Under the pieces are notes generated by a model. That model worked only from the letters and a program-made list of their open reading frames with translations. It ran no database searches and was not told the origin of the DNA. Positions 8,070-63,949 of a stretch of DNA of 64,000 nt are shown in pieces; the stretch's first letter is position 1; every line of letters starts with the position of its first letter. The DNA lies in the NCBI GenBank assembly GCA_017539025.1, contig JAFYHT010000020.1:1-64000 (forward strand), given 5' to 3'. The position numbers and the translations under genes are program-made. This stretch comes from Erysipelotrichaceae bacterium. Lineage in GTDB: Bacteria; Bacillota_I; Bacilli_A; Erysipelotrichales; Erysipelotrichaceae.

Positions 8070-8078
8070 ACTCTATCA

Positions 8079-8690: not shown

Positions 8691-8696
8691 ATATCT

Positions 8697-8702
8697 ATTA
8701 TA
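8697..8702 (-). promoter_or_regulatory. -10 box of trmB, leaderless
   Basis: TATAAT on the minus strand is followed by six bases and then the ATG at 8690. The usual spacing from -10 to the start of transcription puts +1 on the A of ATG. Confidence 0.65.
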
Positions 8703-8727
8703 AGATATAGAAGAAAGGGAGACGCAT

Positions 8728-9798
8728 ATGAATCCGAAAAGAATCACAAATGTATTAGAAAAACTGAACAATGCCGATGCCTTACTGGTCAGCGATCCGA
8801 TCGCGATCTATTATCTGATCGACAGGATGATCCATCCGGGAGAACGCTTCTTAGGACTCTTATTGAAGAAAGATCAGAAACCAAAACTCTTCTTGAATAC
8901 CCTCTTCCCATTTGAAAAAGAAGAAGGCATAGAAGTAGTAGACTACTCTGACAGCGATGACATCACCAAGATATTATCAAAACACATCGATCCAAGCGAT
9001 ACCTTAGGTGTTGATAAATGTCTGCAGGCAAGATTCCTTCTGCCAATGCAGGAAGCAGCTATCGCCAAAGCCTATGTCAATGGTTCACTGGCAGTCGATC
9101 ACACAAGAGCGATCAAAGATGAAGAAGAACTGGAACTGCTCAGAAAATCCTCTCTGATCAACGATATGGCCATGGAACGCTTCAAAAAACTGGTCTATGA
9201 AGGCGTCAGCGAAAAAGAAGTTGCCGACCAGATCCTTGATATCTATCTGGAACTGGGAGCGGAAGGCTTCTCCTTTGAACCGATCGTCGCCTTTGGAAAG
9301 AATGCGGCCGATCCTCACCACATGCCGGATGACACGAAACTCAAAGCCGGTGATGCCGTATTATTCGATGTCGGCTGTGTATACAAGTCTTACTGTTCCG
9401 ATATGACAAGGACTTTCTTCTTCAAAGAAGGGCCAAACGAGAAACAGAAAGAAGTCTACGATCTTGTCAGAAAGGCCAATGAAGACGCCGAAAACTACGT
9501 CAAAGCAGGCGTCAGACTCTGTGATATCGACAAGGTCGCTAGAGATGTGATCACAAAGGGCGGCTATGGCAAATATTTCACCCACCGTTTAGGACACTTC
9601 ATCGGTATCGAAGATCACGAATACGGTGATGTTTCATCATCATTTACCGATCTCACACAAGAAAACAACGTCTTCTCGATCGAACCGGGCATCTATGATC
9701 CTGAAACCCTGGGCTGCAGGATCGAAGACCTCGTCATCGTCACGAAAGAGGGCTGCGAAGTATTGAATCACTATCCTCACGATATTGAGATCATCTAA
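8728..9798 (+). CDS. M24 metallopeptidase, Xaa-Pro dipeptidase/aminopeptidase
   Basis: A cytoplasmic peptidase predicted to cleave X-Pro bonds; 356 residues. The N-terminal ~125 residues form a creatinase-type domain. The C-terminal pita-bread domain has the five metal ligands of the family: two Asp (DVGCVYKSYCSDMTRTF), His (GHFIGIEDHEYG), Glu (SIEPGIYDP) and Glu (CRIEDLVI). A clear Shine-Dalgarno (GAAAGGGAG) precedes the ATG. Whether it is PepQ (dipeptidase) or PepP-like (aminopeptidase) cannot be settled by eye. A shared terminator follows. Confidence 0.93.
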   Translation: MNPKRITNVLEKLNNADALLVSDPIAIYYLIDRMIHPGERFLGLLLKKDQKPKLFLNTLFPFEKEEGIEVVDYSDSDDITKILSKHIDPSDTLGVDKCLQARFLLPMQEAAIAKAYVNGSLAVDHTRAIKDEEELELLRKSSLINDMAMERFKKLVYEGVSEKEVADQILDIYLELGAEGFSFEPIVAFGKNAADPHHMPDDTKLKAGDAVLFDVGCVYKSYCSDMTRTFFFKEGPNEKQKEVYDLVRKANEDAENYVKAGVRLCDIDKVARDVITKGGYGKYFTHRLGHFIGIEDHEYGDVSSSFTDLTQENNVFSIEPGIYDPETLGCRIEDLVIVTKEGCEVLNHYPHDIEII

Positions 9799-47119: not shown

Positions 47120-47850
47120 TCATCCTTTGTACAGTTGAGTTCTGCCCAAGCCGGTACAAAGCCGGCATTCAAAGCAGTCTTTTGCGAAATGATGTGCGAC
47201 AGCGAGGTCCCATAGAACGGCAAGATGCCTTTCTTGAGGATCTCGTTTTTGATCAATGCCACAGCTATTGAACCCAAACCTTTTCCTCTGGCCTTTTCAA
47301 GAGTATCGATGCCGACCTGCCACATATAAGGACTGTCAGCCGATGCCCCAGCCATCGTCAATATTTCTCCATCCCTAGATAAAGATACTCCAATCACGTC
47401 TGGCGCATCTTTGACGAATGTGAAAGCTTCTTTAAAACGAGGATCTCCCTTGAACTGGAATATCTCCTCTTGCGTATACCACTTCACATCATAATCGCCT
47501 GTATCAACATCACTCATCTGTTCGCCGATAAAGAAAGGCCTTACCGCTTCGATGTGATAATGAAATTCGCTCAATATCTGATTGAGCTTCCTCAGGTTTT
47601 CCGCTTCAAAAAACCACTCACCGGGATAATCGTGATATTTTTCTTTACAAATATCGATGATCTGTTTCTTCCCGCAGAATAAAAGCTTTGAATTGACAGA
47701 AACGATCTTCAGGAAACACTCTTCCTGTTCCCTGTATCTTCTTCTGCCTTCAAGATAAGAATGGATGAAGAAATGATTCTTTTCATCCAATACATCTTTT
47801 TCTTCACAGCAGTAATCCTTAGAAAGCTGCTTACATAGTGTCTTATTCAT
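47116..47850 (-). CDS. GNAT-family acetyltransferase
   Basis: 244 residues from the ATG that overlaps the citrate synthase stop. The C-terminal ~110 residues hold the GNAT domain (QVGIDTLEKARGKGLGSIAV, then a YGTSLSHIISQKTALNAGF segment). The N-terminal half is helical and specific to this protein, as in the PF12746-type acetyltransferases. A longer upstream frame only overlaps citrate synthase and is rejected. It is the last gene of the TCA operon; substrate unknown. Confidence 0.8.
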   Translation of the reverse strand: MNKTLCKQLSKDYCCEEKDVLDEKNHFFIHSYLEGRRRYREQEECFLKIVSVNSKLLFCGKKQIIDICKEKYHDYPGEWFFEAENLRKLNQILSEFHYHIEAVRPFFIGEQMSDVDTGDYDVKWYTQEEIFQFKGDPRFKEAFTFVKDAPDVIGVSLSRDGEILTMAGASADSPYMWQVGIDTLEKARGKGLGSIAVALIKNEILKKGILPFYGTSLSHIISQKTALNAGFVPAWAELNCTKDD

Positions 47851-49186
47851 CGCCTTCAATATATCTGTATGCCGGACGGATGATCCTTCTGGAGAATTCG
47901 ATCTCCTCCATACGGTGTGCACACCATCCCGCAACTCTTGAGATCGCAAAGATCGGAGTATAGAGTTCTTCATCAATACCCAATATGCGATAGACCAGTC
48001 CTGAAAAGAGGTCGACATTGGCACAGACGTTCTTACCGGAAGAGTTGTTTTCCGCAAAGATCTCCGGTGCCAGTTTCTCTACCTGACAAAGCATTTCATA
48101 TTCCCTGTCGAGACCTTTTTCATATGCAAGATCTTTACTGTATTTCTTGATGACCTGAGCTCTTGGATCGGACTTGGTGTAGACCGCATGACCAATGCCA
48201 TAAATCAGGCCACTCTTATCTCCGGCTTCCTTATTCATGATCTTTCTGAGAAAATCTTTTACCTTTTCATCGTCATGAACATCATCGACATGTTTCAGGA
48301 TGTCATCAAGCTGTTCCATGACCTTCAGATTGGCACCGCCATGTTTTGGACCCTTTAAAGAACCGATCGCCGCAGAGATCGCCGAATAAGTATCCGTTCC
48401 GGTCGAAGAAAGCACCCTATCCGCAAAGGTAGAGTTATTGCCACCGCCGTGATCCGCATGGACCATCATGCACAGATCGAGAAGCTTGGCCTCTTCATGA
48501 GTGAACTTCTGATCCGGACGGTAGATATCCAGGATGTGTTCCGCCGTACTCAATCCGTGTTTTGGATAATGAAAGTACAGTGACTGATGCAGATAAGTGT
48601 GGCGATAGGACTGATAGGCATAGATCATCATCGTCGGCAGCTGTGCGATCAGGTTGATGGATTGTTTCATGACATTCTCTAGAGATGTGTCATCCGCCTT
48701 TTCATCATAGCTGTACATCGCCAATACGGATCTTGCCATCTTATTCATGATGTTTGGAGATGGCGCATTCATGATCATCGTTTCCGCAAAACCATTAGGC
48801 AGTTCTCTGTGTTCTTCCAACATCGCCTTGAACTTTTTGAGATGTTCGTTGCTGGCACGCTTTCCAAACAGTAAAAGCCACACAACTTCTTCAAACATGA
48901 AACGGTCGTTGATCATCGCTTCTTTGACCAGCTCTTCCATATCGATACCGCGATAGATCAGTTTCCCATCGATCGGAATGATCTGATCATCTTTTCTTTC
49001 ATAACCCACGACATCACAGATATTGGTCAGACCGGCCAAAACACCGGTACCATCCGAATTCCTCAATCCCCTTTTGACACCGTACTTTTCCGAATTCTGC
49101 GCATTGATGTGATTGTTGTTTCGATATTCATTCAGAAGCAGATTCAGATCTTCTTTACTCAAAGCTGCAATTTCAGGATAGATCAT
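47843..49186 (-). CDS. gltA: Citrate synthase
   Basis: Condenses oxaloacetate and acetyl-CoA. 447 residues. Catalytic residues lie in MVHADHGGGNNSTF (His), GIGHAVYTKSDPRA (His) and the late segment DLFSGLVYRILG (Asp). It overlaps the aconitase gene by 4 bases. With aconitase and isocitrate dehydrogenase it makes 2-oxoglutarate, most likely for glutamate synthesis, since no other TCA gene is visible. Confidence 0.95.
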   Translation of the reverse strand: MIYPEIAALSKEDLNLLLNEYRNNNHINAQNSEKYGVKRGLRNSDGTGVLAGLTNICDVVGYERKDDQIIPIDGKLIYRGIDMEELVKEAMINDRFMFEEVVWLLLFGKRASNEHLKKFKAMLEEHRELPNGFAETMIMNAPSPNIMNKMARSVLAMYSYDEKADDTSLENVMKQSINLIAQLPTMMIYAYQSYRHTYLHQSLYFHYPKHGLSTAEHILDIYRPDQKFTHEEAKLLDLCMMVHADHGGGNNSTFADRVLSSTGTDTYSAISAAIGSLKGPKHGGANLKVMEQLDDILKHVDDVHDDEKVKDFLRKIMNKEAGDKSGLIYGIGHAVYTKSDPRAQVIKKYSKDLAYEKGLDREYEMLCQVEKLAPEIFAENNSSGKNVCANVDLFSGLVYRILGIDEELYTPIFAISRVAGWCAHRMEEIEFSRRIIRPAYRYIEGDE

Positions 49187-51396
49187 AGTTCAGCTCCTTT
49201 CTTCTTGTAATAATTCATCAGACAGCCATTCAAGAGGATCTGTCTTTCTTCTTCATTCAACTGGCCCAAAGACAATTCGATCTTCTTCAGCTCATCCGAA
49301 ACAAGATAAGCCTCAATAGCATTGTCTTCTTCGATCGCCTTTCTGATATTTCTGACTAAAACATAGTTGTCTTTCTTTAACGATTCTTTATCCTTAGTCA
49401 GAAATGGCAGGATACCCCAGTTGATACAGTTGGAACGATAACGCTTGGTCGCATACTCTTTTGCGAAGTTTGCTCCGCCACCCAATACTCGCTGGCAGGA
49501 AGCGGCCTGTTCTCTGGCAGAACCATCTCCGGGCTTATTCGCATAGATCGCCGATACGATCAGAAAATCATCGCTCAACAATCCTTTTTCTTTCAGATCC
49601 CTAACGATCTCAAGATCATCCTTCTTCTCATTGAGATCTTTTGTTTCCTTTGCCAGGCCCACATAATCCGGATCTCTTCTGGATAAAGTGAATTCTGCCA
49701 GTCTTAAAGGATTGGAACGAAACGATGAAGTCTCTCCCGAAGGGATCAGTTCATCCGTCGTCGTAACCGGATCATCGATATGAGAAACGATACGGATCAA
49801 TAGATCTTCACTTAATTCAGGGATCGCAGGCCAATCCTTGATGTTTGGCCCAAAAACCAGTTCAACACTATGATCAGCTTTCCCATACGCATTGAACACT
49901 CTTCTTTCATAGATCTTTCGATCAAAGCCAGAAGGTTTCAGATCATATTCCATATCCAGATCGCTGGCGGCAGTTAATACGCCGTGATTGCCAGCGGTCG
50001 CTGCGATCGATCTGGCATCCATCAGACAGACCATTGCACATTGACCTTCCGTCGGTTTGGAGCCTTCACGATTCGGGAAATTCCTGGTCGTATGGCGGAT
50101 GGAAAGTTCCTTGTCGGCTGGCACATCGCCAGCCCCGAAACAAGGTCCACAAAATGCCTCTCTATAAACTGCACCGGCTTCGATCAGATCGGAAACAACG
50201 CCCTTTTTCATCAGTTCGAGTGATATCGGCATTGAATCAGGATAGACGGACAACCTGAACTGTCCACTTCCGATATGTTTTCCTTTTAAGATCTGAGAAG
50301 CTGCACAGATGTTTTCATAAACACCGCCGGAACAGCCTGCAATGATCGCCTGATCGACACGGATATCACCGTTTTCATCGATCTTGGAAACGAGCTTCAT
50401 ATTGTTTTTGTTCTGGCCCTGTTTGCCAAGTCGTTCATCAGCCTCATTCAGATATTTATAAGGATCTTTCTTTAATTCGTTAATAGCGATCGCATAACTT
50501 GGATGCATCGGCAAAGCGATCATACATTCGACTTTGGAAAGATCCAGATCGATATAGCGGTCGTAATAAGCACCGTCTTCAACCTTTAATTCCCTGTATG
50601 CATCTTCCCTGCCATGGATCTTATAATATTCTTTCGTCTTGTCATCCGTCTCCCAGATACTGGAGAAACAGGTGGTCTCTGTCGTCATGACATCGATCCC
50701 GTTACGGAAATCCTGTGACAGTTCATGGATCCCCTCTCCGACGAATTCCAGTACGGCATTTTTCACAAAGCCGTTTTCATATACGGACCCGATCAGATCC
50801 AGAGCCACATCATGAGGACCGACACCGTTTATCACTTTTCCATGGACATGGACCAATACCACATCCGGATAAGTGATGTCATAAGTCTGTTTCAACAGCT
50901 GTTTGACCAGTTCTCCTCCGCCTTCGCCAACACCCATCGTGCCCAAAGCACCATAACGGGTATGGGAGTCTGAACCCAATATCATCCTTCCGCAGCCGCT
51001 CATCATCTCTCTGTTGTAGCTGTGGATGACCGCGTAGTTTGCCGGAACATAGATGCCGCCATATTTCTTTGCGGCAGACAAGGCAAAGCGATGATCATCT
51101 TCATTGATGGTCCCACCGACTGCGCATAAGGAATTATGACAGTTGGTCAATACATAAGGCACAGGAAATTCTTCCATTCCCGAAGCCTTGGCAGAAAGGA
51201 TGATCGAAACATAGGTGATATCGTGGGAAGTTAAAGAATCAAAACGGATATGCATCTGTCTTTCATCGCTCTTGTCATCATGTGCTGACATGATCTGATA
51301 AGCCAGCGTCTTTCGATATCCGCTTTCTTTCAAGCTCTTATCGCATACTACAGGCTTTCCATCCTGCAGGATGACAGGTGTATTATAGATCTTCAT
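49183..51396 (-). CDS. Aconitase-family hydratase
   Basis: 737 residues with the aconitase fold: GSDSHTRYGALGTMGVGEGG in the N-terminal part and the 4Fe-4S cysteines in AGCSGGVYENI and CGPCFGAGDVPA. The C-terminal swivel domain has DGSAREQAASCQRVLGG, close to the substrate-binding GSSREQA of aconitases. The family also includes proteins annotated only as hydratase, but the position between isocitrate dehydrogenase and citrate synthase, overlapping both, argues for citrate-isocitrate conversion. Confidence 0.88.
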   Translation of the reverse strand: MKIYNTPVILQDGKPVVCDKSLKESGYRKTLAYQIMSAHDDKSDERQMHIRFDSLTSHDITYVSIILSAKASGMEEFPVPYVLTNCHNSLCAVGGTINEDDHRFALSAAKKYGGIYVPANYAVIHSYNREMMSGCGRMILGSDSHTRYGALGTMGVGEGGGELVKQLLKQTYDITYPDVVLVHVHGKVINGVGPHDVALDLIGSVYENGFVKNAVLEFVGEGIHELSQDFRNGIDVMTTETTCFSSIWETDDKTKEYYKIHGREDAYRELKVEDGAYYDRYIDLDLSKVECMIALPMHPSYAIAINELKKDPYKYLNEADERLGKQGQNKNNMKLVSKIDENGDIRVDQAIIAGCSGGVYENICAASQILKGKHIGSGQFRLSVYPDSMPISLELMKKGVVSDLIEAGAVYREAFCGPCFGAGDVPADKELSIRHTTRNFPNREGSKPTEGQCAMVCLMDARSIAATAGNHGVLTAASDLDMEYDLKPSGFDRKIYERRVFNAYGKADHSVELVFGPNIKDWPAIPELSEDLLIRIVSHIDDPVTTTDELIPSGETSSFRSNPLRLAEFTLSRRDPDYVGLAKETKDLNEKKDDLEIVRDLKEKGLLSDDFLIVSAIYANKPGDGSAREQAASCQRVLGGGANFAKEYATKRYRSNCINWGILPFLTKDKESLKKDNYVLVRNIRKAIEEDNAIEAYLVSDELKKIELSLGQLNEEERQILLNGCLMNYYKKKGAEL

Positions 51397-52390
51397 GTCT
51401 GATCCTTTCGATCAGCGCATCGGTAAATGCACTTGTAGAGGCAGTCCCGCCGATATCAGCAGTGACACATTTTCCTTCGGCAATCATATCTTCGATCACC
51501 TTACGGAGCAGTTCTCCTTTTTTCTTTTCGCCATTATCCTTTAAAAGATCCGCAAAGCTCATCAGGATAGCACTTGGATTTGCGATATCCTTGCCGGCAA
51601 TATCCGGAGCGGAACCATGTACTGCTTCATAGATCTTCACCTCATCACCGATATTGACGCTTGGCGCAAAACCAAGACCGCCGACAAGTCCGGCACACAG
51701 ATCGGAAATGATATCTCCATAGAGATTCGGTGCAACCAGAACATCAAAAGCACATGGATCGCTTACCAGTTTCATACATAAGGCATCGATGATGACACTG
51801 TCACTTTCGATCTCGGGATATTCTGAAGAGACTTTCTTAAAGACATCCAGGAACAAACCATCTGTGAGTTTCATGATATTGGCCTTATGAACACAGGTCA
51901 CTTTTTTACGTCCGTTTTTTCTTGCGTAATCAAACGCAAAACGGATAATCCTTTCACTCGCTTCACGAGTGATAATCTTGATCCCATGAGCCGTGTTTTC
52001 ATCGTACATGTATTCTACGCCCTTATAGAGATCTTCGCTGTTTTCTCTGATGACGACCAGGTCGACATCTTCGAATCTGGTCTTTACACCCTTCATCGAT
52101 CTCAAAGGTCTGACGTTTGCGTAAGTATTGAAACGCTGGCGCAGATAGACATTGATGCTGCGGAAGCCTGTTCCGATCGGCGTTGCGGTAGGACCTTTTA
52201 AAGCCAGACCACAATCCTGAATCTTCTCCAATAAGCCATCTTCCATGAGCTTTCCGCTTTTCTCGTAGTATTCGCTTCCTGCTTCACATTCCAGAAAAGA
52301 AACATTACAGTTCAATGCTTCAGATACTCTGATGACACTTTCACAGATCTCCTTACCGATCCCATCACCTCTGATCAATACAACATCCAT
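51383..52390 (-). CDS. NAD-type isocitrate dehydrogenase (isopropylmalate dehydrogenase superfamily)
   Basis: 335 residues. IRGDGIGKEI starts the fold, GFRSINVYLRQRFNTYANVR is the substrate-binding region in the isocitrate rather than isopropylmalate style, and LYGDIISDLCAGLVGG carries metal-binding Asp residues. EAVHGSAPDIAG is shared by the superfamily. The preferred ATG follows GTGAGGT by 7 bases; a GTG 21 bases upstream is the alternative. The first gene of the operon IDH-aconitase-citrate synthase-GNAT; it overlaps aconitase by 14 bases. Confidence 0.87.
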   Translation of the reverse strand: MDVVLIRGDGIGKEICESVIRVSEALNCNVSFLECEAGSEYYEKSGKLMEDGLLEKIQDCGLALKGPTATPIGTGFRSINVYLRQRFNTYANVRPLRSMKGVKTRFEDVDLVVIRENSEDLYKGVEYMYDENTAHGIKIITREASERIIRFAFDYARKNGRKKVTCVHKANIMKLTDGLFLDVFKKVSSEYPEIESDSVIIDALCMKLVSDPCAFDVLVAPNLYGDIISDLCAGLVGGLGFAPSVNIGDEVKIYEAVHGSAPDIAGKDIANPSAILMSFADLLKDNGEKKKGELLRKVIEDMIAEGKCVTADIGGTASTSAFTDALIERIRHEDL

Positions 52391-52424
52391 ATCCATGACC
52401 TCACTATTCACTTCATTCTACCAC

Positions 52425-52455
52425 AATAAAAGAAGAGTACCTCTTAATGGTACTC
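52425..52455 (-). terminator. Terminator of the pRiA4b-like gene
   Basis: A 7-bp stem (52435-52441 with 52449-52455) containing the stop codon in its loop is followed by TTCTTTTATT on the minus strand. Confidence 0.8.
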
Positions 52456-53403
52456 CTCATCTTCCGATTCATAGTCATCTTCGTCCATATCATCCATGAA
52501 ATCATCCAGAGAACGATATGCTTCCCTTAGAAGCTGTTCCTTCACCATCTCCATCAGAGAGTATTCATCCTTTTCCGGATACAAGAGAGAGAAATGTTCC
52601 AACAGTCCCTTGATCAGATAATAACTCGATATCTGCATATTCACATAGCTGTCCGTCAGAAGATCTTCATCATCAAAGTGGAACTGATCCATCTCCTGAT
52701 CCCTGTTCCAGTCAAACGGTTCATCTCCATCATAAAGGTCCAGTCCATCAACGAAAGGATTCTCACCCGAGTAATACAGTTCAGGATCGACATATCTGAC
52801 ATCCTTTTCAAAACCATGGCGGTGATATCCATCTACATACTCATTGATGTCATCCAGATAAAAATCTTCAAAATACTGCTGTTCCTCTGCCAGATCATAG
52901 TCCTCAAAATCCGCAAAACAGACATTCTCGTGATTCCAAGGAAGAGTGACAGAAGGATTCTTCGGATCATGATCGGCACTTGGAGAAACAAGACCTGAAA
53001 GATACATATCCAGAGAATACTTGTTGTCTTCCCAGACACCCTGGCCCTTGCCATCGATCAATATCGCAAAAGAAGTATCATCGTTGTTATAGGAACCCAA
53101 AGTCTCACATTCAAATTCCCAGCCATCTCCGGTATCGTATTCAAAAGTGAAATACGGACCAAGATCCTTCAATATATAATCCTTCATCGGTTTCCAGCCG
53201 TCATAACCGTTCCCGGTGAAAGACTCCGGCACATATGCTTTCTTATTGGACCTGAACATGAAGTTATGTTCAAATTCACAACTCAAAGCCGTGCAAAGGA
53301 TACATCCCACATATACCAGATTCAGATCACTTCTGATATCCAGAACACGATAAAAACGATCCTTTGCCTCTTCATAACTGACCGAAATCCTGTTATATTC
53401 CAT
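52444..53403 (-). CDS. Plasmid pRiA4b ORF-3-like protein
   Basis: 319 residues. The N-terminal ~170 residues match the PRiA4_ORF3 family: FYRVLDI, ALSCEFEHNFMFR, FTFEYDTGDGWEFECETLG and a PSVTLPWNHENVCF segment. The rest is very acidic, with repeated Asp, Glu and Tyr. This family often travels on mobile DNA and is found with transposons and plasmids, but its function is unknown. It has a strong Shine-Dalgarno (AAGGGGGAG), and two tandem palindromes lie in its upstream region. Confidence 0.78.
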   Translation of the reverse strand: MEYNRISVSYEEAKDRFYRVLDIRSDLNLVYVGCILCTALSCEFEHNFMFRSNKKAYVPESFTGNGYDGWKPMKDYILKDLGPYFTFEYDTGDGWEFECETLGSYNNDDTSFAILIDGKGQGVWEDNKYSLDMYLSGLVSPSADHDPKNPSVTLPWNHENVCFADFEDYDLAEEQQYFEDFYLDDINEYVDGYHRHGFEKDVRYVDPELYYSGENPFVDGLDLYDGDEPFDWNRDQEMDQFHFDDEDLLTDSYVNMQISSYYLIKGLLEHFSLLYPEKDEYSLMEMVKEQLLREAYRSLDDFMDDMDEDDYESEDEEYH

Positions 53404-53547: not shown

Positions 53548-54543
53548 TCAATCAATACTCAGATCCTTTGCATAAGAATACGGGATCACCTGATATTCCT
53601 TCGTTTCCTGATATCCCTTTTCCTGATGAGAATAGTCCGCGATCTGCTTTGAACCGAAATCTTTAAACCGATCATACACCTTATTCAATATCAAAGTCTC
53701 ATCATCAGAAAGATCCGAAATCGGATCTTTATCCAGTGCTATGATCCTTATCTTCTCATAACCGTTGTCTTCAAAATGTTCCATACGGATCAACCCGTCT
53801 TTTTCCATGAATTCCAGCAACATCTCATATCTTTCCGGAACAGGACCGTAATTGTAATGAAAATACCTGCTTCCGGATATTGAAACACTGTTTTCCCGAT
53901 AACTCAACATATCCGCATAATTCATCAGTTTCAAAAGCTTGACTTTTAATAATTCCTTAGAACGATCCGCATAATACAGAACCATTGCACAGAACTTTTC
54001 ATAATCAAACGATTTAAACCCGTTTTCAATAGACGGTCCTGATCTCATCATCTGTTCAGCAACGCCTTTGGATCCCTGCTGTTTTTCAGACAATCCTTCG
54101 ATCTTCTTAAGAAGACTGTCCTTTTTATTTTCACTGAGCGTGATCTCATTTTCATTCAGATAAGTCTTCATATTATTCGGATCTTTCAGAAGTGTCAGCA
54201 AACTGTTGTGTGCCTTGTCCTGAAGAGAACCATTTTCATATCTATGTATCGTTTTATCTCCCCAGTTCAACAGTTTTCCAAAACTTCTCTGAGACAATCC
54301 ATACTGTTTTCTGATGTCTTTGATATCTTCAGGAAACAGAAGTTTATGTCTGATCCGATATTCGTTGTAAGCTTTCAATAAGGTATCATTATCGAGTTCC
54401 TCATCAAACAGTCTCTCTCCGCATTCACAACACACCAAAACATCCGCAAGGACTTCTATATCCTCCCCATTGATGCGGTATGATTCATTGACTTTGTCAA
54501 TCCTTGTTTTGACCTTCTTTTGACATTTTGGACAATAATTCAT
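53548..54543 (-). CDS. Zn-finger/HTH/Panacea-domain antitoxin-like protein
   Basis: 331 residues in three parts. Residues 1-45 are an MqsA-like zinc ribbon (C4, C7, C38/39, C41). Residues ~70-105 are an XRE-type helix-turn-helix (IKDIRKQYGLSQRSFGKLL). Residues ~178-320 match the SocA/Panacea (DUF4065) domain (YEKFCAMVLYYADR, LLKLMNYADMLSYR, YFHYNYGPVPERYEML). Panacea-domain proteins neutralise diverse toxins in toxin-antitoxin and prophage systems. No toxin-sized gene lies next to it; the only close neighbour is the pRiA4b-like gene. The gene is more AT-rich than its surroundings. Confidence 0.82.
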   Translation of the reverse strand: MNYCPKCQKKVKTRIDKVNESYRINGEDIEVLADVLVCCECGERLFDEELDNDTLLKAYNEYRIRHKLLFPEDIKDIRKQYGLSQRSFGKLLNWGDKTIHRYENGSLQDKAHNSLLTLLKDPNNMKTYLNENEITLSENKKDSLLKKIEGLSEKQQGSKGVAEQMMRSGPSIENGFKSFDYEKFCAMVLYYADRSKELLKVKLLKLMNYADMLSYRENSVSISGSRYFHYNYGPVPERYEMLLEFMEKDGLIRMEHFEDNGYEKIRIIALDKDPISDLSDDETLILNKVYDRFKDFGSKQIADYSHQEKGYQETKEYQVIPYSYAKDLSID

Positions 54544-54639: not shown

Positions 54640-55455
54640 TTAAAGAAACAGATTCGCAGTGATCTCGTTTCGTTTCTCATCGATCACAAACCCTAATGAA
54701 CGATAAAGATTAAGTGCTGGAATATTATCGATATCCACATGGAGACTCATGTCTTTCGGTTCGTTCATTTTGATTGCCTTTGTCAGAAGCTTTCTACCAT
54801 ATCCTTTTCTGCGATATTCTTCTCTAACAAAGAGATCGGCAGGTTCGTTGTCATCATATGTATACGTGACATCGACATAGCCGACTGCTTTATCATCCTC
54901 CAAAGCGATCAGGACCTTGAAACGTTCCGGAGCTTCGATCACTTTCTCTCCTGTCCAGTAAAGATCCTTGTTATGCATATCCAGGTAATCATCCTGATAT
55001 CGATCATTCAACAGGATGATCCCGTCACATTCATATGGTAAAGGCTTATGAGTATAACTCATCTTATACTGTTCGACATCAAACTGCGCGTTTGCTTTCT
55101 TAAGTTCTTCTTTCAGAAGAAGATTCTTCGGATTGAAAACGAAATCGATCTGATATCCAGGATACTTTTCTTGAAAGTAAGCGATCAGTTCTTCATATGC
55201 TTTCTCATTTCTTGAAAAACACCCCAGCAGCTCCATATACTTTTCATCCTGCAGTTCAAGAAAAACGAAAAGTCCTGTGATCTCTTCATCTTCAAAAGCA
55301 CCATATGCGATATGCTTGTCATTTTTCAGAAAATTGAATAATCGATCATCGATCTGATCTTCACTTAAGAAATGCGGATCACAAAAGCATTCTTCATCTA
55401 TAAAACCGATGACAAAATCCCGATACCGATTCAAATCTGTGATCTGTCTTATCAT
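54640..55455 (-). CDS. GNAT-family N-acetyltransferase (two-part)
   Basis: 271 residues. The C-terminal ~130 residues are a GNAT domain with the acetyl-CoA motif VREEYRRKGYGRKLLTKAI and a closing NIPALNLYRSLGF. The N-terminal half (FIDEECFCDPHFLSEDQI, YGAFEDEEITGLFVFLEL) looks like a second, degenerate GNAT lobe. It starts right after the nucleotidyltransferase stop and is the last gene of that unit, so it might acetylate a sugar product, but this is only inferred. Confidence 0.8.
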   Translation of the reverse strand: MIRQITDLNRYRDFVIGFIDEECFCDPHFLSEDQIDDRLFNFLKNDKHIAYGAFEDEEITGLFVFLELQDEKYMELLGCFSRNEKAYEELIAYFQEKYPGYQIDFVFNPKNLLLKEELKKANAQFDVEQYKMSYTHKPLPYECDGIILLNDRYQDDYLDMHNKDLYWTGEKVIEAPERFKVLIALEDDKAVGYVDVTYTYDDNEPADLFVREEYRRKGYGRKLLTKAIKMNEPKDMSLHVDIDNIPALNLYRSLGFVIDEKRNEITANLFL

Positions 55456-56178
55456 TTATATACTTTTTTCTTCAAACAGTTTCTTTACATTTTCATAGGA
55501 AGCGATATCACCGATATCATAGCGTTTCCCTTCCATGATCCAGGCATGCATATCTATCTTATGCGAAAGCCATGCCGCAAAAGAACCCGGCGCATCATAG
55601 CCGCAGCCATCTTTCAATGCTTCTTCGATCCGCTTGATATCTTCATTTCGATAGAAATAAAACGGCGGGACCGCCAAGTTTCCCTTTGGTTCTTTCGGCT
55701 TTTCTTCGTAAGTCAATATCCTCTTATTCTCATCGATCGTGATGATCGCTGTCTTCTGTTTTTTCTTCAGATCATTTTCTTCATGACACATGACACAGCT
55801 GGTCTTTTTCTGTTTCGAAAAATCGATGAATCCCTTCAAAGAAAAATCCAGAAGATTGTCTCCCGCCATGACCAGTACATCATCATCGATCTCTTTGGCG
55901 GCCAGCTGAATATCCCTGACAGCGCCAAGTCTTGTTTCATTGCTTTCAGTCATATCGTCGATGATGCGGACGTTCTTTTCTTCTGCAGCCCACTTTTCGA
56001 AGATATGAGAGAACTTGTGATTGGTGACGACGATGAACTCTTCGATCTGATCTTCTATGTCCTGAATCAGCCAGTCCAGGATCGGTTTTCCGCCTACTTC
56101 CAGTAAAGGCTTGGGAAAGTTTTCCGTCAATGGATATAATCTTGTCGCATAACCTGCCGCAATGATGATACACTTCAT
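55456..56178 (-). CDS. Sugar-1-phosphate nucleotidyltransferase
   Basis: 240 residues of the NTP_transferase family. The nucleotide-binding start is IIIAAGYATRLYPLTENFPKP, with VGGKPILDWL and the metal-binding AGDNLLDF; the late RYDIGDIASYENV is typical of hexose-1-phosphate nucleotidyltransferases. It overlaps the GHMP kinase gene by 4 bases, so the kinase product (a sugar 1-phosphate) is its likely substrate. The nucleotide (UTP or TTP) cannot be told from the sequence. Confidence 0.87.
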   Translation of the reverse strand: MKCIIIAAGYATRLYPLTENFPKPLLEVGGKPILDWLIQDIEDQIEEFIVVTNHKFSHIFEKWAAEEKNVRIIDDMTESNETRLGAVRDIQLAAKEIDDDVLVMAGDNLLDFSLKGFIDFSKQKKTSCVMCHEENDLKKKQKTAIITIDENKRILTYEEKPKEPKGNLAVPPFYFYRNEDIKRIEEALKDGCGYDAPGSFAAWLSHKIDMHAWIMEGKRYDIGDIASYENVKKLFEEKSI

Positions 56179-57365
56179 TTCAAAACTCCTACTCCGTCAG
56201 CAGAATGACAGATCGCTGCCTGATACTTGCCGATCAGATCAGGATATTCTTTCAGATATTCATGTGTGACCTTGTCAATGATCTCATCCGCCTTATCCGG
56301 ATCGATCAGGGCCATACAACAGCCCTTAAAACCGGCACCGGAAAAACGTCCGCCATAGATGCCGTCAGTTTTTGTCATGATGTCATATAAGCTGATCAGC
56401 TGGTCACAGCCACACTCATAGTTTTCGATGCTGGATCTGCCCGATTCAAAAACAAGTCTTCCATAGGCATCCAGATCGCCATCCTTCCAGGCTTTGGCAC
56501 CTTCTTGTGCTCTTTCAAACTCCGTGAAGTAGTGCTTTGCCCGCTTATAGAAGTTTTCCGGAAGTCTGTCCTTGTAGCTTTCAAATACCTCAAACGGCAC
56601 ATCCCTGAGTCTGGTCTCCTTGAATTTTCCATATGGAAGCCCTGCATAGGCAAGCAGGTCATAAGCCGCAGCCTTGCATTCATCCTGACGCAGATTGTAG
56701 GCGGAATTGGCTAAAGACCTCTCCAGACCCGAGAAAAAGACTGCGATCGCATAAGGTTTCATATTTTCAGGTGTTTGAATCAGTGTATAGGAATCATCTT
56801 TGCAATCGAGATAGAGAAGATGATCCTTCTGGCATAACACTTCGCAAGCCTGATCCAGCTTGCCACAGTTGACACCGACATATTCATTCTCAGCCTTCTT
56901 GGCCATCATGATCAGTTCCCAGTCACCTAATTCGATCCGATTCAGTTTGCACAAAGCACTCATGAAAACGATGATGACAGCAGCCGAAGAAGAAAGACCT
57001 CCTACCGGAAGAGTTCCTTCGATCACGGCAGACATGCCGACACGCAAAGGATAGACTTCATTCAATACCTTTGCCGCACCGCGAAGATGATCTGCCCAGT
57101 CTCCTACCTTCTTATCCGGAATGGAAGCGACATGGAACTGTGCCCTTTTTGGGAAATTCAAAGACTGCAGTTCCACGACTCCGTTCTGTTTGGCACTGTA
57201 TGCGATATGGATCCCCTTATCGATCGCCAATCCGTTGATCTTGCCAAACTGATGGTCGATATGGGCACCCAAAGGTGAGATGCGGTAAGGACAGAATCCG
57301 GTATATTCCGGATCCTTGCCATAGATCTCTCTGTATTTGATCACACTGTTCATTTCATTTTTCAT
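56175..57365 (-). CDS. GHMP sugar kinase, galacturonokinase-like
   Basis: 396 residues of the galactokinase group. The ATP-binding GGLSSSAAV is at about 123-131 and the C-terminal GGRFSGAGFKGCCMAL is conserved. The sugar-binding motif of galactokinase (GEHTDY) is replaced by PLGAHIDHQFG. From memory, this GAHIDHQ form is that of plant galacturonokinase rather than of galactokinase. The gene lies 107 bases after uxuB in a hexuronate region, which supports a uronic acid as substrate. The product would be a uronic acid 1-phosphate for the coupled nucleotidyltransferase. Confidence 0.8.
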   Translation of the reverse strand: MKNEMNSVIKYREIYGKDPEYTGFCPYRISPLGAHIDHQFGKINGLAIDKGIHIAYSAKQNGVVELQSLNFPKRAQFHVASIPDKKVGDWADHLRGAAKVLNEVYPLRVGMSAVIEGTLPVGGLSSSAAVIIVFMSALCKLNRIELGDWELIMMAKKAENEYVGVNCGKLDQACEVLCQKDHLLYLDCKDDSYTLIQTPENMKPYAIAVFFSGLERSLANSAYNLRQDECKAAAYDLLAYAGLPYGKFKETRLRDVPFEVFESYKDRLPENFYKRAKHYFTEFERAQEGAKAWKDGDLDAYGRLVFESGRSSIENYECGCDQLISLYDIMTKTDGIYGGRFSGAGFKGCCMALIDPDKADEIIDKVTHEYLKEYPDLIGKYQAAICHSADGVGVLK

Positions 57366-57472: not shown

Positions 57473-58999
57473 TCAGACGTACTTTTCCAAAGTCCTTCTG
57501 ACCGCACCTTTTTCCTTCAACATCTCGTTCAGATAGGAAATGACTTTATCGGAAAGGCCATTCTCATAGAGATCAACGCCGAAGATCTTATCATTTTTCA
57601 ATATTGAAAGAATATCTTCTTTTTTTACTTCATCACCTAATGTATAAGTGACTAACGGCTTCAGTTCTTCGAGCATCGGATCGGAAGGAAGCTCAAACTC
57701 TTCACCCTTGTCGTTGATCCCTGTCAGATATCTTAACCATCCCGCAAAAACCAGTGGGATATAAGTCAGTTCAGAAAGATCTTCCCCTTTCTTAAGATAA
57801 GCCTTCAGGGTCTCACCGAATCTGACCGGCAGCTTCTGTGATGTGTCCATCGCAATACGCTGCGGTGCATCAGGCATGAACGGATTGGGAAGTCTGACAT
57901 CGATAACGGTATCGATGAATTCCTTCGGATCGATGATCCCCGGATCAGTAACGACCGGAAGTCCCTCATCATAACCGACATGTCTGGCCAGCTTGTTCAG
58001 GACATCATCTTTCATCTCTTCACAGATCAGATGATGATCCAAGAGGCAACCAAAGACCGCCAGTGAAGTATGGACCGGATTGAGACAGGTTCCGACTTTC
58101 ATCTTTTCGACCTTGTCGACTGTTTCTCTGTCAGTAAAGATGACACCGGCTTTCTCCCATGAAGGTCTTCCGTTTGTGAAATCATCTTCAATGACCAGAT
58201 ATTCACTCTCTTCCGAATTGACGAAACAGTTCATGTAGTATGCAGGATCGAGTTCATCGACTTCTTCTACCCCGTCTTTTCTTAATATCTCAGCGATCCT
58301 CTTATCAGGACGCGGGGTGATCTTGTCGATCATCGCGATCGGGAAAGATACTTTATCTTTCAGATAATCATTGAATCTCGCATCATCGATCCTGTCCGCA
58401 AAAGCCATGATCGCTTTTTTCAATACATCGCCATTATGGGAACAGTTGTCATGAGAAGACATCGTCAAAGGATATGCGCCATTAAGATATCTTTCATACA
58501 GGAGCTTTGTGATCTTGCCGAAATATGATTTCTCCGTATCCGGATAAGCATCTCTTTCTTCTTGAGATACCTTGTATCCTTTTTCTGTGATCGTAAAGGA
58601 AACGACCTGTAAGGATGGATTTGAGAAGATCTCCTTGAGTCTTTCTTCTTCCTCGATCTTGATCGATTCAGCGATCGACCCGATCACTTTCTTATCAATA
58701 TTGCCATCGCTTTTCAATACGACGGAAATATAAAGATCATTCATATCTCTGTAATAGGTATCGATACCGGAAGAGCTCCTTCCGGAAACGACGATCACAC
58801 CCTTGTTTATAACGCCTTGATTCAACAATCTGTCGCAGAAGTCTGCCTGATAGGCTCTGAAAAGATTCCCGGAACCAAAGTGGATCCATACAGGATCTTT
58901 TCTGGTTTCTTCGATCATCTTTTTGCGGTCATAGGAGTAGACTTCATAACCTTTGGAAAGCCATTGTTCTCTTTCCTTATCAATATTGATGAGTCTCAT
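57473..58999 (-). CDS. uxuB: Fructuronate reductase / mannitol dehydrogenase family
   Basis: 508 residues of the polyol dehydrogenase family. VWIHFGSGNLFRAYQADF is the N-terminal dinucleotide site; conserved later segments are MSSHDNCSHNG, FPIAMIDKITPRP and DPGIIDPKEFIDTVIDVRLPNP. The start overlaps the end of uxuA by one base, which argues for D-fructuronate to D-mannonate reduction rather than the tagaturonate reaction of UxaB. Confidence 0.87.
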   Translation of the reverse strand: MRLINIDKEREQWLSKGYEVYSYDRKKMIEETRKDPVWIHFGSGNLFRAYQADFCDRLLNQGVINKGVIVVSGRSSSGIDTYYRDMNDLYISVVLKSDGNIDKKVIGSIAESIKIEEEERLKEIFSNPSLQVVSFTITEKGYKVSQEERDAYPDTEKSYFGKITKLLYERYLNGAYPLTMSSHDNCSHNGDVLKKAIMAFADRIDDARFNDYLKDKVSFPIAMIDKITPRPDKRIAEILRKDGVEEVDELDPAYYMNCFVNSEESEYLVIEDDFTNGRPSWEKAGVIFTDRETVDKVEKMKVGTCLNPVHTSLAVFGCLLDHHLICEEMKDDVLNKLARHVGYDEGLPVVTDPGIIDPKEFIDTVIDVRLPNPFMPDAPQRIAMDTSQKLPVRFGETLKAYLKKGEDLSELTYIPLVFAGWLRYLTGINDKGEEFELPSDPMLEELKPLVTYTLGDEVKKEDILSILKNDKIFGVDLYENGLSDKVISYLNEMLKEKGAVRRTLEKYV

Positions 59000-60066
59000 T
59001 ATCTTTCACTCTTTTCTATTGCTTCCCACAAGCCGCAGATGTAGGCAGCCCCTAAGGCTCTGTCATACAAGCCATAACCCGGCATCGCCACTTCATCCCA
59101 GATCATACGTCCGTGGTCCGGTCTGATCGGACCTGTAAAGCCGATATCATGTAAGGCCTTGACGATCTCATACATGTCGAAATTTCCGTCTTCAGATAAA
59201 TGAGCAGCTTCTTCAAAATCGTCCTGCGAATTGAATTTCAGATTTCTGACATGCGCAAAATGGATCCTACCCTTTAATGATCTGATCATATCAGGAAGAT
59301 CATTCTTCAGATTGGTTCCATAGGAACCTGCACAGAATGTCACACCGTTGTGCGGGTCATCGACCATCTTCATCATCCTCAAAATGTTTTCCTTATTGGT
59401 GATGATACGAGGCAAACCAAATACCGACCAGGCCGGATCATCCGGATGGATCGCCATATTGATGTCATATTCGTTACATACCGGCATGATCTTCTCCAAG
59501 AAGTATTTCAGATTCTCAAAGAGCTTTTCTTCATCGATGTCTTTATACATTTCAAAGAGCTCTTTGACATGCGCCATCCTTTCCGGTTCCCAACCCGGCA
59601 TCACAGTTCCATTCATATCGGAAGCGATGGAGTCGAACATCTTTGCCGGATCAAGTTCATCAACTGTCTTTTGCGTATACGCGAGAACTGTTGAACCATC
59701 TTCCCTGACTCTGGCCAGTTCAGTCCTTGTCCAGTCAAATACCGGCATGAAATTGTAACAGACCATATGGATGTCTTCCTTGCCGAGATTCCTTAAACAC
59801 TCGATATAGGTTTCAATATCTTTGTCTCTGTCAGCCGAACCCGTTTTGATCGCATCGGAAACATTGACCGACTCAATACCTGCCAGGTGTAAACCGGCAG
59901 CTTCAACTTCTTCCTTTAACGCATGGATCTCTTCCCTTGTCCATAAGTCTCCGGGCTGTTTGTCATATAAAGTAGTAATAACTCCCGTCACATATCTGAT
60001 CTGTTTCAGCTGTTTCAGGGTAACGGTATCGTGTCCTGTACCGTACCAGCGCATCGTCATTTCCAT
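58999..60066 (-). CDS. uxuA: Mannonate dehydratase
   Basis: 355 residues. Converts D-mannonate to 2-keto-3-deoxygluconate. Characteristic segments include MTMRWYGTGHDTVTLKQLKQ at the start, MAIHPDDPAWSVFGLPR, GVTFCAGSYGT (metal Cys) and IRPDHGRMIWDE. The ATG follows GGAGAAG. The 108-base gap to the kinase gene holds an AT-rich promoter region with a possible TATAAA box. Confidence 0.95.
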   Translation of the reverse strand: MEMTMRWYGTGHDTVTLKQLKQIRYVTGVITTLYDKQPGDLWTREEIHALKEEVEAAGLHLAGIESVNVSDAIKTGSADRDKDIETYIECLRNLGKEDIHMVCYNFMPVFDWTRTELARVREDGSTVLAYTQKTVDELDPAKMFDSIASDMNGTVMPGWEPERMAHVKELFEMYKDIDEEKLFENLKYFLEKIMPVCNEYDINMAIHPDDPAWSVFGLPRIITNKENILRMMKMVDDPHNGVTFCAGSYGTNLKNDLPDMIRSLKGRIHFAHVRNLKFNSQDDFEEAAHLSEDGNFDMYEIVKALHDIGFTGPIRPDHGRMIWDEVAMPGYGLYDRALGAAYICGLWEAIEKSER

Positions 60067-60174: not shown

Positions 60175-61590
60175 TCAGCACGAAAGCAACTTCTTTACTG
60201 CCTTATACAGCGTATCATCATCTCCGACATTCCCCGGAAAGATCACATACGGGATATCCGGGAATTTTGATTCACTATCAGCCTTCCAGACCGGAACACC
60301 CGGCTCGATCTGTCCCAAGACAAGTGCCTTACGGATCCCCAGACCCTTGACACCCACATCGGCAGAAGTGATCCCGCCTTTGGCTACGACAAAGGACGGC
60401 CTGACTTTCAGATCTTTGATCAGAGTATAAACGCCCTCTGAGATCCTGACACTTCTTTCAAGAGCTTCTTCCTTACTATCGTTTTCAAACGACAGTAGAA
60501 CTCTTTCCGTATAGATCACAACACTCTTTCCCTTGGATATCAGTTCTTCCTCCAGAGAAACGCAACGTCTGATCTCTTTTTCCCATTCTTCCTTGCTTTC
60601 AAGGATCTTTGAACATTTGAATTCAATGAATTCCAGCCCTTCGATCCTTCTTAACATCTCCATCTGCCTTGTCGTCTTATCGGTATGGGAACCGATGACG
60701 ATGATGCCACCGTTTTTCTGTTCACCTGTGATCAGTTCTTCATGGCTCAGAAGATCTTTATCAGAAACTCCGCCAACACACTTTACAAAAGAAGCCGCTG
60801 TTCTGAAAGAGAAGATCTTCCCCTTTTTCATTGCCTGATACAAAGCGATGCAGAAGACTCTGATGTCGTCATCGCAAACCGCATTGACGATGATCCTTTT
60901 TCTGTCGTGAGCTTGACAAAGCAAATCACAGATCTTTTCAGATCTTCTGTTTTTCAGATCATCAAGGCAAACGCTTAAGACATCTTCCTTTGCGATCTTT
61001 CCATCCGTTTTTTCTTCGATGTATCCCTTGAGATCGGAAGAAGAATAACCGAATGTCTTATCCTTTGCGAATTCTGTTTCTGCACAAGGAATGAGTTTGT
61101 CTCCATATTTCACATAGTGGACATCATCGATCGTGAATCTTCCGCCTTCCTTGAAATACGGGATCAGGATCTCTCCATCGACTTTTCCATAGTCTTTGAT
61201 CAGACCAACGCACAGAATATCCGGTTCCAAAGGATAATGTCCTCTTAAAGTCGAATCTCCTCTTGAAATATAGAGATATTTTTTCCCTGTTTCTTTTGAA
61301 ACTTCAGAAACGGTTCTGATCAGATTTTCATGATAGTTTTTTGTCTGGTCTTCACTCATCGCCCTGGAATTAGTCAGGATGAAAAAGAGCTTGTGCTCAA
61401 AGCCATCCCTGATCGAATCGTGAGAGATATCCGTATAGACATTGATGTCGTGAACACATTGCACACCCGTCGGATCATCATCAAGAACGACAAAAACATG
61501 ATCGTCTTCTTCTACATATCCGCTTAGAATTTTTTCGATCTCTTCGTCTTTTCCATTATTGTTTTCCAGGATCGAAGTATCCAGTATCAT
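60175..61590 (-). CDS. Four-carbon acid sugar kinase (DUF1537 family)
   Basis: 471 residues. The N-terminal domain starts FVVLDDDPTGVQCVHDINV, the DDDPTG pattern of the family; SRGDSTLRGHYPLE is the acid-sugar-binding segment. The C-terminal ATP-binding domain has FVVAKGGITSADVG and IPYVIFPGNVGDDD. Family members phosphorylate threonate, erythronate and related acids. The start follows the stop of the racemase-fold gene directly (TAGATG), so the two are coupled. The substrate is open. Confidence 0.88.
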   Translation of the reverse strand: MILDTSILENNNGKDEEIEKILSGYVEEDDHVFVVLDDDPTGVQCVHDINVYTDISHDSIRDGFEHKLFFILTNSRAMSEDQTKNYHENLIRTVSEVSKETGKKYLYISRGDSTLRGHYPLEPDILCVGLIKDYGKVDGEILIPYFKEGGRFTIDDVHYVKYGDKLIPCAETEFAKDKTFGYSSSDLKGYIEEKTDGKIAKEDVLSVCLDDLKNRRSEKICDLLCQAHDRKRIIVNAVCDDDIRVFCIALYQAMKKGKIFSFRTAASFVKCVGGVSDKDLLSHEELITGEQKNGGIIVIGSHTDKTTRQMEMLRRIEGLEFIEFKCSKILESKEEWEKEIRRCVSLEEELISKGKSVVIYTERVLLSFENDSKEEALERSVRISEGVYTLIKDLKVRPSFVVAKGGITSADVGVKGLGIRKALVLGQIEPGVPVWKADSESKFPDIPYVIFPGNVGDDDTLYKAVKKLLSC

Positions 61591-62241
61591 CTATAATCCC
61601 AGTTCTTTTTTGACTCTTTCAACAGCCAGTCTCGGCGAAGTTAGTACCGGTTTTTCAATGCCTTCCAGATAAGGCAGGATCGCCGTCATGGAACCCTGTG
61701 CCAATACGACGACATCGTTTTCACTGGCTGCTTTTCTGATCTCTTCAATGACCAGTTCATTGTGCTTTTGCGTATCGCCAGCCATTAAGATATCCAGTGC
61801 GCCATCTACCAGATATTCTCTGACATGGACGTCCTTTTCCATCTTATCAGCTGTCCTTCTGATCAGGTCACAGGATGGCTGAACAGTTGATGCGACTGTC
61901 GCGACGACACCGATCCTGGAACCCAGTTCGACAGCCTTTTCTGCCATCGGTTCATCGATCTTGAGCGTCTTACAGGAAACCTGATTCCTTGCAATATCAA
62001 AAGCCTCACCAACTGATGAACACTGATTGAAGATCAGATCCGGATGCAGGGTATTGGCAACTTGCACATAAACACACATCCTTGAAATGATATCCGAATT
62101 GATCTTGCCATTTCTCTTGACCTCTTCCAGAAGAGAATCATCAATGATATTGACCATCTCAACTTCCGGAATGATCTCCTTGAACAGAGCCTTGAGATCA
62201 TTGAGTGAAACAGGACTGGTGTGGATCAATACAACTTTCAT
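61591..62241 (-). CDS. Asp/Glu racemase-fold protein lacking the second cysteine
   Basis: 216 residues from the ATG with the better Shine-Dalgarno distance (GGAGG, 10 bases). The racemase fold is suggested by VVLIHTSPVSLNDLK, the first Cys motif in FNQCSSVGEA, RIGVVATVASTVQPS and the late VVLAQGSMTAI. In true racemases the last motif carries a second catalytic Cys (GCT); here it is QGS. It is therefore unlikely to be a classical two-base racemase and may be an isomerase or decarboxylase of the same fold. It is coupled to the DUF1537 kinase, so it may act on the same four-carbon acid. Confidence 0.75.
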   Translation of the reverse strand: MKVVLIHTSPVSLNDLKALFKEIIPEVEMVNIIDDSLLEEVKRNGKINSDIISRMCVYVQVANTLHPDLIFNQCSSVGEAFDIARNQVSCKTLKIDEPMAEKAVELGSRIGVVATVASTVQPSCDLIRRTADKMEKDVHVREYLVDGALDILMAGDTQKHNELVIEEIRKAASENDVVVLAQGSMTAILPYLEGIEKPVLTSPRLAVERVKKELGL

Positions 62242-62287
62242 AACTGTGAATTCCTCCATCTAAATTGAAATATCAATATTGCTGTTA

Positions 62288-62545: not shown

Positions 62546-63949
62546 TTATCCGAAATAATGAAGCGCGTTATTGTAAGAGATATCCTCAACGATCTTTCCT
62601 AATGTTTCAAGATCATATGGATAATCTCCGTTTTCAACATAAGTGCCAAGCTTGTTGCATAAGATCCTGCGGAAATACTCATGTCTTGAGAAAGACAGGA
62701 AACTTCTGGAATCCGTCAACATGCCTACAAACGTAGAAAGAACGCCATTATCTGCCAGGTCATTGAGCTGTTTCTCGATACCCGTCTTGTGATCGTTGAA
62801 CCACCAGGCACTGCCATACTGCATATGGCCCGGCGGGCCCGGTTTCTGGAAACATTGCATCAAGGTGATCAATGCATCATTATCGTTTGCGCTGAGTGAA
62901 TAAAGAATCGTCTTAGGAAGACATTCGTTCAGATCCAGCTGATCCAAAACCTTCTGTAACTGTCCCAAGTAATCACCGCTGCCGATCGAATCATAGCCGG
63001 TATCAGCACCCAATATCCTGAAACTCCTTGTCGAGTTGTTTCTCATCGCGCCGATGTGCAGCTGCATCACAACATTTCTCTTATAATATCTTTCGCCCAT
63101 CTGAACGTAGAGATAACCCTTGTACTGTCTGACTTCTTTTGTTGTAAGAGTTTCGCCATTCAAAGCTTTCTTCATGATCGCAGTGACGGCAGCTTCATCT
63201 GCTTCTTCATAGATATTTCCATCTACCGCATGGTCAGAACCGGCACAACCCATTTCCACGAAATAATCAAGACGTTTCTCCAACGCTTTGACAAGAGTTG
63301 CAACATCAGTGATCTCAACACTGGAAACATCAGACAACTGTTTCAGATACTCCTTATACCCTTCCTTATCGATATTGAATGCCTTGTCCGGACGATAGGA
63401 AGGAAGGACTCTGATCTCAAAACCATCTTCCTTGATCAGCTTATGCCATTTCAGATCATCGATCGGATCATCTGTCGTACATAATGTCTTGACATTCATC
63501 TTTCTCAAAAGATTCCTGACAGAAAACTCTTTCGTTTTCAGAAGTTCATTGCATCTCTCATATACCTTTTCACAGTTATCCGGTGTCAAAGATTCGTCGA
63601 TCCCAAAGTATCTCTTTAATTCCATATGAGAGAACGTATAGACCGGATTGCCTATCACTTTAGGAAGAGTCTCACTGTAAGCCTTGAACTTTTCAAAGCC
63701 TGACGCATTGCCGGTGATCTTTTCTTCTTCTACGCCACAAGCTCTCATCAGACGCCATTTATAGTGATCGCCATAGTTTCCTTCATTCAGCCAGATCTTG
63801 GAGATATCATCGAAGTTCCTGTCTTCATAGATCTCCTTTGGATTCAAATGGTTATGGAAATCATAGATCGGCATATCCTTGGCGTGTTCAAAGAACAGCT
63901 TTTCCGCAACTTCATTGTTCAACATGTACCTGTCATCTAAAAAGTTCAT
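62546..63949 (-). CDS. uxaC: Uronate isomerase
   Basis: Interconverts glucuronate and fructuronate (and galacturonate and tagaturonate). 467 residues, the normal size. The amidohydrolase metal motif is YDFHNHLNP, followed by LCTTDDPIDDLKWH and QLHIGAMRNNSTR. The Shine-Dalgarno TTTGGAGG is well placed. It overlaps the preceding gene by 4 bases and supplies the substrate for uxuB and uxuA in the same region. Confidence 0.95.
   Translation of the reverse strand: MNFLDDRYMLNNEVAEKLFFEHAKDMPIYDFHNHLNPKEIYEDRNFDDISKIWLNEGNYGDHYKWRLMRACGVEEEKITGNASGFEKFKAYSETLPKVIGNPVYTFSHMELKRYFGIDESLTPDNCEKVYERCNELLKTKEFSVRNLLRKMNVKTLCTTDDPIDDLKWHKLIKEDGFEIRVLPSYRPDKAFNIDKEGYKEYLKQLSDVSSVEITDVATLVKALEKRLDYFVEMGCAGSDHAVDGNIYEEADEAAVTAIMKKALNGETLTTKEVRQYKGYLYVQMGERYYKRNVVMQLHIGAMRNNSTRSFRILGADTGYDSIGSGDYLGQLQKVLDQLDLNECLPKTILYSLSANDNDALITLMQCFQKPGPPGHMQYGSAWWFNDHKTGIEKQLNDLADNGVLSTFVGMLTDSRSFLSFSRHEYFRRILCNKLGTYVENGDYPYDLETLGKIVEDISYNNALHYFG

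Follow-up and report, generated by a model that had tools for sequence, protein, structure and literature searches.

The question raised by this locus is which sugar is phosphorylated by a kinase that shares the fold of galactokinase but departs from it in a principal sugar-binding motif. Within the window, by which is meant the entire 64,000-nucleotide stretch of DNA analysed, the original prediction had pointed to a GHMP kinase with PYRISPLGAHIDHQ where galactokinase has PGRVNLIGEHTDY, had described it as translationally coupled to a nucleotidyltransferase and a GNAT acetyltransferase beside uxuB-uxuA and near uxaC, and had suggested a salvage route from free uronic acid to a nucleotide sugar such as UDP-galacturonate for envelope glycans. 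Open reading frames, Pfam assignments (GHMP_kinases_N, GHMP_kinases_C and GalKase_gal_bdg) and the location of the motif, GAHIDHQ, at residues 33–39 all agreed with that description of the kinase, and the two genes that follow it (Table 1) encode proteins matching NTP_transferase and Acetyltransf_1, respectively. The kinase stop and nucleotidyltransferase start share a 4-bp ATGA overlap, and the GNAT gene begins one base past the nucleotidyltransferase end, with zero gap. The hairpin downstream of the GNAT gene is likely to mark the end of a transcription unit and, taken with the weaker hairpin upstream of the kinase, suggests that the three genes may form a separate unit of their own. The interval between uxaC and uxuA (60175–62259) was found to encode an SBD_N/NBD_C protein of the four-carbon acid sugar kinase family and a member of the Asp/Glu racemase family.

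Table 1. Features of the kinase locus and its immediate surroundings, in coordinates of the window.
Feature	Position	Strand	Remarks
Kinase ORF	57365-56175	minus	396 aa; GHMP sugar-1-kinase, galactokinase fold; proposed galacturonate 1-kinase
Nucleotidyltransferase ORF	56178-55456	minus	240 aa; PF00483; proposed UTP:galacturonate-1-phosphate uridylyltransferase
GNAT ORF	55455-54640	minus	271 aa; PF00583; lineage-specific acetyltransferase
Terminator-like hairpin 3' of GNAT	54621-54600	minus	AATGCGGTTATATGACCGCATT TTTATT; good
Weak terminator-like hairpin, uxuB/kinase gap	57446-57425	minus	consensus match only
uxuB-like fructuronate/mannitol dehydrogenase family gene	57473-58999	minus	family search; context, outside unit
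uxuA mannonate dehydratase	58999-60066	minus	family search; context, outside unit
uxaC uronate isomerase	62546-63949	minus	family search; context, outside unit; catabolic competitor for the same substrate

The G-A-H-x-D-H portion of the motif was invariant in all 87 kinase-family members compared, and its presence in the window is therefore not a matter of chance. The family as a whole conformed to PYRxxxxGAHxDH[QN], the sole deviation being one Pro to Thr replacement outside G-A-H-x-D-H, and A34, H35, D37 and H38 were each invariant in a 32-row alignment. The equivalent sequence in E. coli galactokinase (L124) is GEHTDY, while galactokinase-like paralogues of the window's order mostly read GNHTDHQ. 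A phmmer search of solved structures with the window kinase found galactokinases, and its AlphaFold2 model (mean pLDDT 91.1) matched the L. lactis galactokinase-galactose structure 1pie with a Z of 47.0 over 380 residues at 27% identity. The ATP motif GLSSSA is common to both enzymes, and phmmer alignment showed that human GALK1 residues R37, H44, D46, D186 and Y236, which belong to the galactokinase sugar site, are all kept as R28, H35, D37, D171 and Y223. By the same alignment Tyr47 becomes His38, and Glu43, also a sugar-site residue, becomes Ala34, the conserved sugar-binding Glu of GEHTDY thus being absent and replaced by Ala in 87/87 family members. Glu43 of galactokinase lies near O6 of galactose, and its replacement would fit the demands of a substrate bearing a carboxylate at C6.

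Annotation pipelines will nevertheless call this protein a galactokinase, since it passes the TIGR00131 galactokinase model by a margin of 0.6 bits (227.2 against a cut-off of 226.65), other galactokinase equivalog models scoring it far under their cut-offs. That narrow pass, and the galactokinase fold and domain, favour a kinase acting on galactose or on another neutral or amino sugar, the downstream enzyme then making a different NDP-sugar and any linkage with UDP-uronate genes reflecting shared capsule clusters. Such an activity is judged unlikely given the exchange of Glu for Ala at the sugar-binding position, the separate phylogenetic placement described below, and the presence in the same genome (contig C22) of a second galactokinase-like gene with 27% identity to the kinase.

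A maximum-likelihood tree constructed from 32 kinase-family members, eight galactokinases and 12 order-level paralogues with G[N/M]HTDHQ placed the kinase family in a single clade (support 100/99) apart from the galactokinases (89/91), to which identity of the kinase is 27–31%. Clustering with true galactokinases, named beforehand as the outcome that would count against a uronate kinase, did not therefore occur. The usual galactokinase-like protein of the order (L009-L020), with GNHTDHQ in place of GEHTDY, branches far from both the galactokinases and the present kinase family. An approximate Arabidopsis galacturonokinase sequence, to be read as a lead only, joined the kinase clade with support of 100/98 and shared 36–41% identity with the kinase family (about 40% with the bacterial kinase) compared with 26–31% with galactokinases; in that approximate sequence the motif is likewise GAHIDHQ. 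The plant enzyme (EC 2.7.1.44, GalAK), reportedly the subject of a study by Yang et al. in 2009, would resemble the window kinase as a GHMP 1-kinase of galactokinase fold with GAHxDH for GEHTDY. In Arabidopsis galacturonokinase is encoded by At3g10700 (PMC8636097) and has a Km of 71 µM as quoted in PMC3938481, and in plants the product of the kinase step is then activated to give UDP-galacturonate (PMC8636097, PMC6329318). The two systems differ in that the window pair is bacterial and operonic, and in that the second plant enzyme is a UDP-sugar pyrophosphorylase (Sloppy/USP) whereas its bacterial equivalent is a short 240-aa nucleotidyltransferase of RmlA/GalU type.

This assignment of the second enzyme was confirmed by its N-terminal signature AAGYATRLYPLTENFPKPLL and by its fold, both characteristic of RmlA/GalU-type proteins (PF00483). 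Structure searches returned UTP-glucose-1-phosphate uridylyltransferases as the top matches (Z 27.3) with others within 1–3 units, and by profile as well as structure uridylyl-, thymidylyl-, adenylyl- and guanylyltransferases match it almost equally. Examination of 87 distinct kinase loci, 84 of which had room for a downstream nucleotidyltransferase, demonstrated that this gene follows the kinase directly and on the same strand in 79/84. Across 61 order-level genomes, moreover, an orthologue was present in 8/8 that bear the kinase compared with 0/53 of the others (p = 3e-10). The conserved core unit is the kinase plus the nucleotidyltransferase, a partnership that further distinguishes the kinase from galactokinase GalK, the partner here being a nucleotidyltransferase and not GalT.

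The GNAT gene is tied to this pair by adjacency only, adjoining it in 1/87 loci, that of the window, and a role for the acetyltransferase as a third pathway enzyme was accordingly rejected. Similarly, uxuB-uxuA and uxaC do lie where they had been described, but they accompany the pair in the window alone (1/87 loci), and their adjacency was discarded as evidence for its function. The same count bears upon the suggestion that the pair serves uronate catabolism or its regulation beside uxuB-uxuA, for example by detoxifying or storing uronate-1-phosphate. The kinase does adjoin uxuB in the window, and uxaC is associated with it across the order, being present in 6/8 kinase-bearing and 10/53 other genomes (p = 0.003 for the whole order and 0.10 for the genus alone); with none of uxaC, uxuA and uxuB near any other of the 87 loci, however, and a weak terminator-like hairpin separating uxuB from the kinase, a catabolic role appears highly improbable.

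By way of contrast with these catabolic genes, which neighbour the pair in the window only, the commonest partner of the kinase after the nucleotidyltransferase was a short-chain epimerase resembling UDP-glucuronate 4-epimerase, located no more than 6 kb away in 46/87 loci and usually adjacent, while UDP-glucose 6-dehydrogenase lay within 6 kb in 23/87. All 53 epimerases recovered, including that on contig C61 of the window's own genome and that of Lactococcus garvieae, contained FFTVYGPxGRPDM. The closest solved structure was 5u4q, deposited as a dTDP-glucose 4,6-dehydratase, followed by 6zl6 and its companions, entries that we equate with the B. cereus UDP-glucuronate 4-epimerase described in PMC7984243 and PMC12338863. 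In the conserved motif, the Arg aligns with Arg185 of the B. cereus enzyme, which is reported to engage the UDP-galacturonate carboxylate (PMC12338863); the aligned WbgU sequence is devoid of an equivalent Arg.

Other neighbours of the pair were polysaccharide genes, comprising flippases, WbsX glycosyltransferases, UDP-GlcNAc 2-epimerases and FnlA, and many of the loci are capsule clusters. On the L. garvieae plasmid CP066001.1 (L109) the order recorded was capsule tyrosine kinase and phosphatase, sugar transferase, epimerase, kinase, nucleotidyltransferase, nucleotide-sugar dehydrogenase and glycosyltransferases; the existing annotation of this plasmid represents the kinase by two hypothetical proteins, and the gene table used has no nucleotidyltransferase entry. 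Neighbours of FnlA type (12/87 loci) and WecB/FnlC-like type (8/87) would be in keeping with a neutral or amino sugar substrate, but the predominance of the epimerase as a partner argues against one, as does the need of 17 genomes, considered below, for a source of UDP-uronate. A recurrent neighbour of a different kind was NTP_transf_5 (PF14907), an uncharacterised nucleotidyltransferase family detected in 9/104 flanking proteins scanned (e.g. L055:6832-7989).

The possible sources of UDP-uronate were compared by searching 48 kinase-bearing genomes from the contig scan for the epimerase, UDP-glucose dehydrogenase and the UDPG_MGDP_dh domain. The epimerase was detected in 42/48 and UDP-glucose dehydrogenase in 20/48; 22 of the 28 genomes without the latter contained no UDPG_MGDP_dh domain, and 17 of those 22 possessed the epimerase. 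Incomplete assembly is an unlikely cause of the missing dehydrogenase, PheS (E < 1e-60) being present in 25/28, including 17/17 of the key genomes. In the six other genomes of the 28, three dehydrogenases (L131, L133, L136) resemble by eye those acting on UDP-ManNAc or UDP-GlcNAc. Every one of the 26 epimerase-bearing genomes in the window's order carries UDP-glucose dehydrogenase too, a contrast that is suggestive, the sets of 17 and 26 genomes belonging to different clades and ancestry being uncontrolled. Since those 17 genomes have an epimerase yet no nucleotide-sugar dehydrogenase, the kinase-nucleotidyltransferase pair is their likeliest source of UDP-uronate. The window genome itself has on contig C61 a UDP-glucose dehydrogenase gene (7590–8825; 74%) and an epimerase gene (6230–7234; 63%), a divergent pair among unrelated genes, and with this de novo route available salvage is not needed there.

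The best-supported reading of these results, and one we consider probable, is that the pair would convert galacturonate via galacturonate-1-phosphate to UDP-galacturonate and thereby feed surface glycans. The original proposal to this effect is upheld by inference, mostly through evidence beyond its own argument from context, namely the separate clade, the near-invariable pair, the linkage to epimerase, dehydrogenase and capsule genes, and the genomes that have the epimerase and lack UDP-glucose dehydrogenase. The order-wide association of uxaC with the kinase also counts in favour of this reading. As envisaged, the kinase would catalyse the ATP-dependent C1 phosphorylation of free D-galacturonic acid, and the nucleotidyltransferase would combine the resultant galacturonate-1-phosphate with a nucleotide, UTP being its most probable source, and so yield UDP-galacturonate. 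UDP-glucuronate 4-epimerase, encoded elsewhere in the window genome and beside the pair in many relatives, would connect this product with UDP-glucuronate, the two together supplying acidic capsule or other surface glycans. Galacturonate rather than glucuronate as substrate, UTP as nucleotide and the use of the product are what we infer from the sequence data. With uxaC and, by reading alone, further uronate catabolic genes at 74–88 kb of the same contig accompanying the kinase pair in one genome, galacturonate probably has two fates in the window organism, a gut bacterium, namely catabolism and activation, and salvage would compete with the uxaC-type route for it. One feature that counts against the salvage model, and that it does not explain, is that in Bacteroidales the kinase follows directly, and almost without a gap, a glucose-6-phosphate isomerase gene (L054:6648-8000, L057, L058, L061, L062, L064, L068, L072, L078).

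The same route could alternatively be entered by phosphorylation of D-glucuronate, or of both uronates, with UDP-glucuronate as the first product in the manner of plant and zebrafish glucuronokinase/pyrophosphorylase. The gene context fits either uronate and does not separate them, because the epimerase interconverts their UDP forms, and a GH2 gene, beta-glucuronidase-like by reading, lies 2 kb away in two relatives. The galactokinase fold argues against glucuronate, as does retention of Asp37 and Tyr223, whose counterparts in galactokinase contact the galacto-configured ring, and so does the placement of the approximate plant galacturonokinase sequence within the kinase clade. In zebrafish a glucuronokinase is fused to a bacterial-type nucleotidyltransferase (glucuronokinase/putative UDP-glucuronate pyrophosphorylase; PMC3938481), a precedent for a uronate 1-kinase and such a nucleotidyltransferase cooperating in UDP-uronate salvage, but it is a fused, glucuronate-specific protein of another GHMP subfamily, and PMC3938481 describes the sequence of the Arabidopsis galacturonokinase as highly divergent from those of glucuronokinases. 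On balance, this alternative entry through glucuronate, or through both uronates, is rather improbable. The salvage logic of a kinase plus nucleotidyltransferase, as proposed here for galacturonate, is also that of the Bacteroides fucokinase/GDP-fucose pyrophosphorylase FKP and the HddA/HddC heptose pair, which differ in acting on other sugars and in belonging to other GHMP subfamilies (Z ~29 vs 47 for galactokinase).

The kinase was present in 8/36 genomes of the window's genus and at a frequency of about 1% more widely (3/344 genomes in the window's phylum; 3/348 in that of a Butyrivibrio relative), most genomes searched holding another galactokinase-like gene too. Named carriers were for the most part assembled from rumen or gut metagenomes and belong to Lachnospiraceae, Oscillospiraceae, other Clostridia, Erysipelotrichaceae and Bacteroidales. 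This rare and patchy distribution, together with the copy on the L. garvieae plasmid, points to possible transfer. A bolder proposal, offered tentatively and at somewhat less than even likelihood, is that a mobile UDP-galacturonate salvage module, composed of the kinase and its dedicated nucleotidyltransferase, has taken over from UDP-glucose dehydrogenase and become the sole supplier of UDP-uronate in many gut bacteria, whose acidic capsules would then be made with pectin sugar scavenged from the diet. Among the open-access papers searched, none described a bacterial galacturonokinase, so the novelty of a bacterial counterpart to plant galacturonate salvage is provisional. If the proposed function is correct, a substrate could be named for a family that pipelines annotate as galactokinase, bacteria would gain an equivalent of the plant pathway, the capsule chemistry of bacteria in the gut and rumen would be tied directly to dietary pectin galacturonate, and the pair would constitute a compact enzyme set for making UDP-galacturonate. 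The idea is directly testable in that some kinase-bearing genomes seemingly have no other route to UDP-uronate.

Beyond the downstream hairpin, the window encodes an antitoxin protein in which an MqsA-type zinc-finger/HTH part is fused to a Panacea (SocA-like) part, together with a neighbouring pRiA4b ORF-3-like protein (53548–54543 and 52444–53403), no toxin gene being seen near them in that region. Further on, at 47843–52411, lie in tandem genes that by sequence resemble those for citrate synthase, aconitase and isocitrate dehydrogenase, a putative compact oxidative TCA branch.
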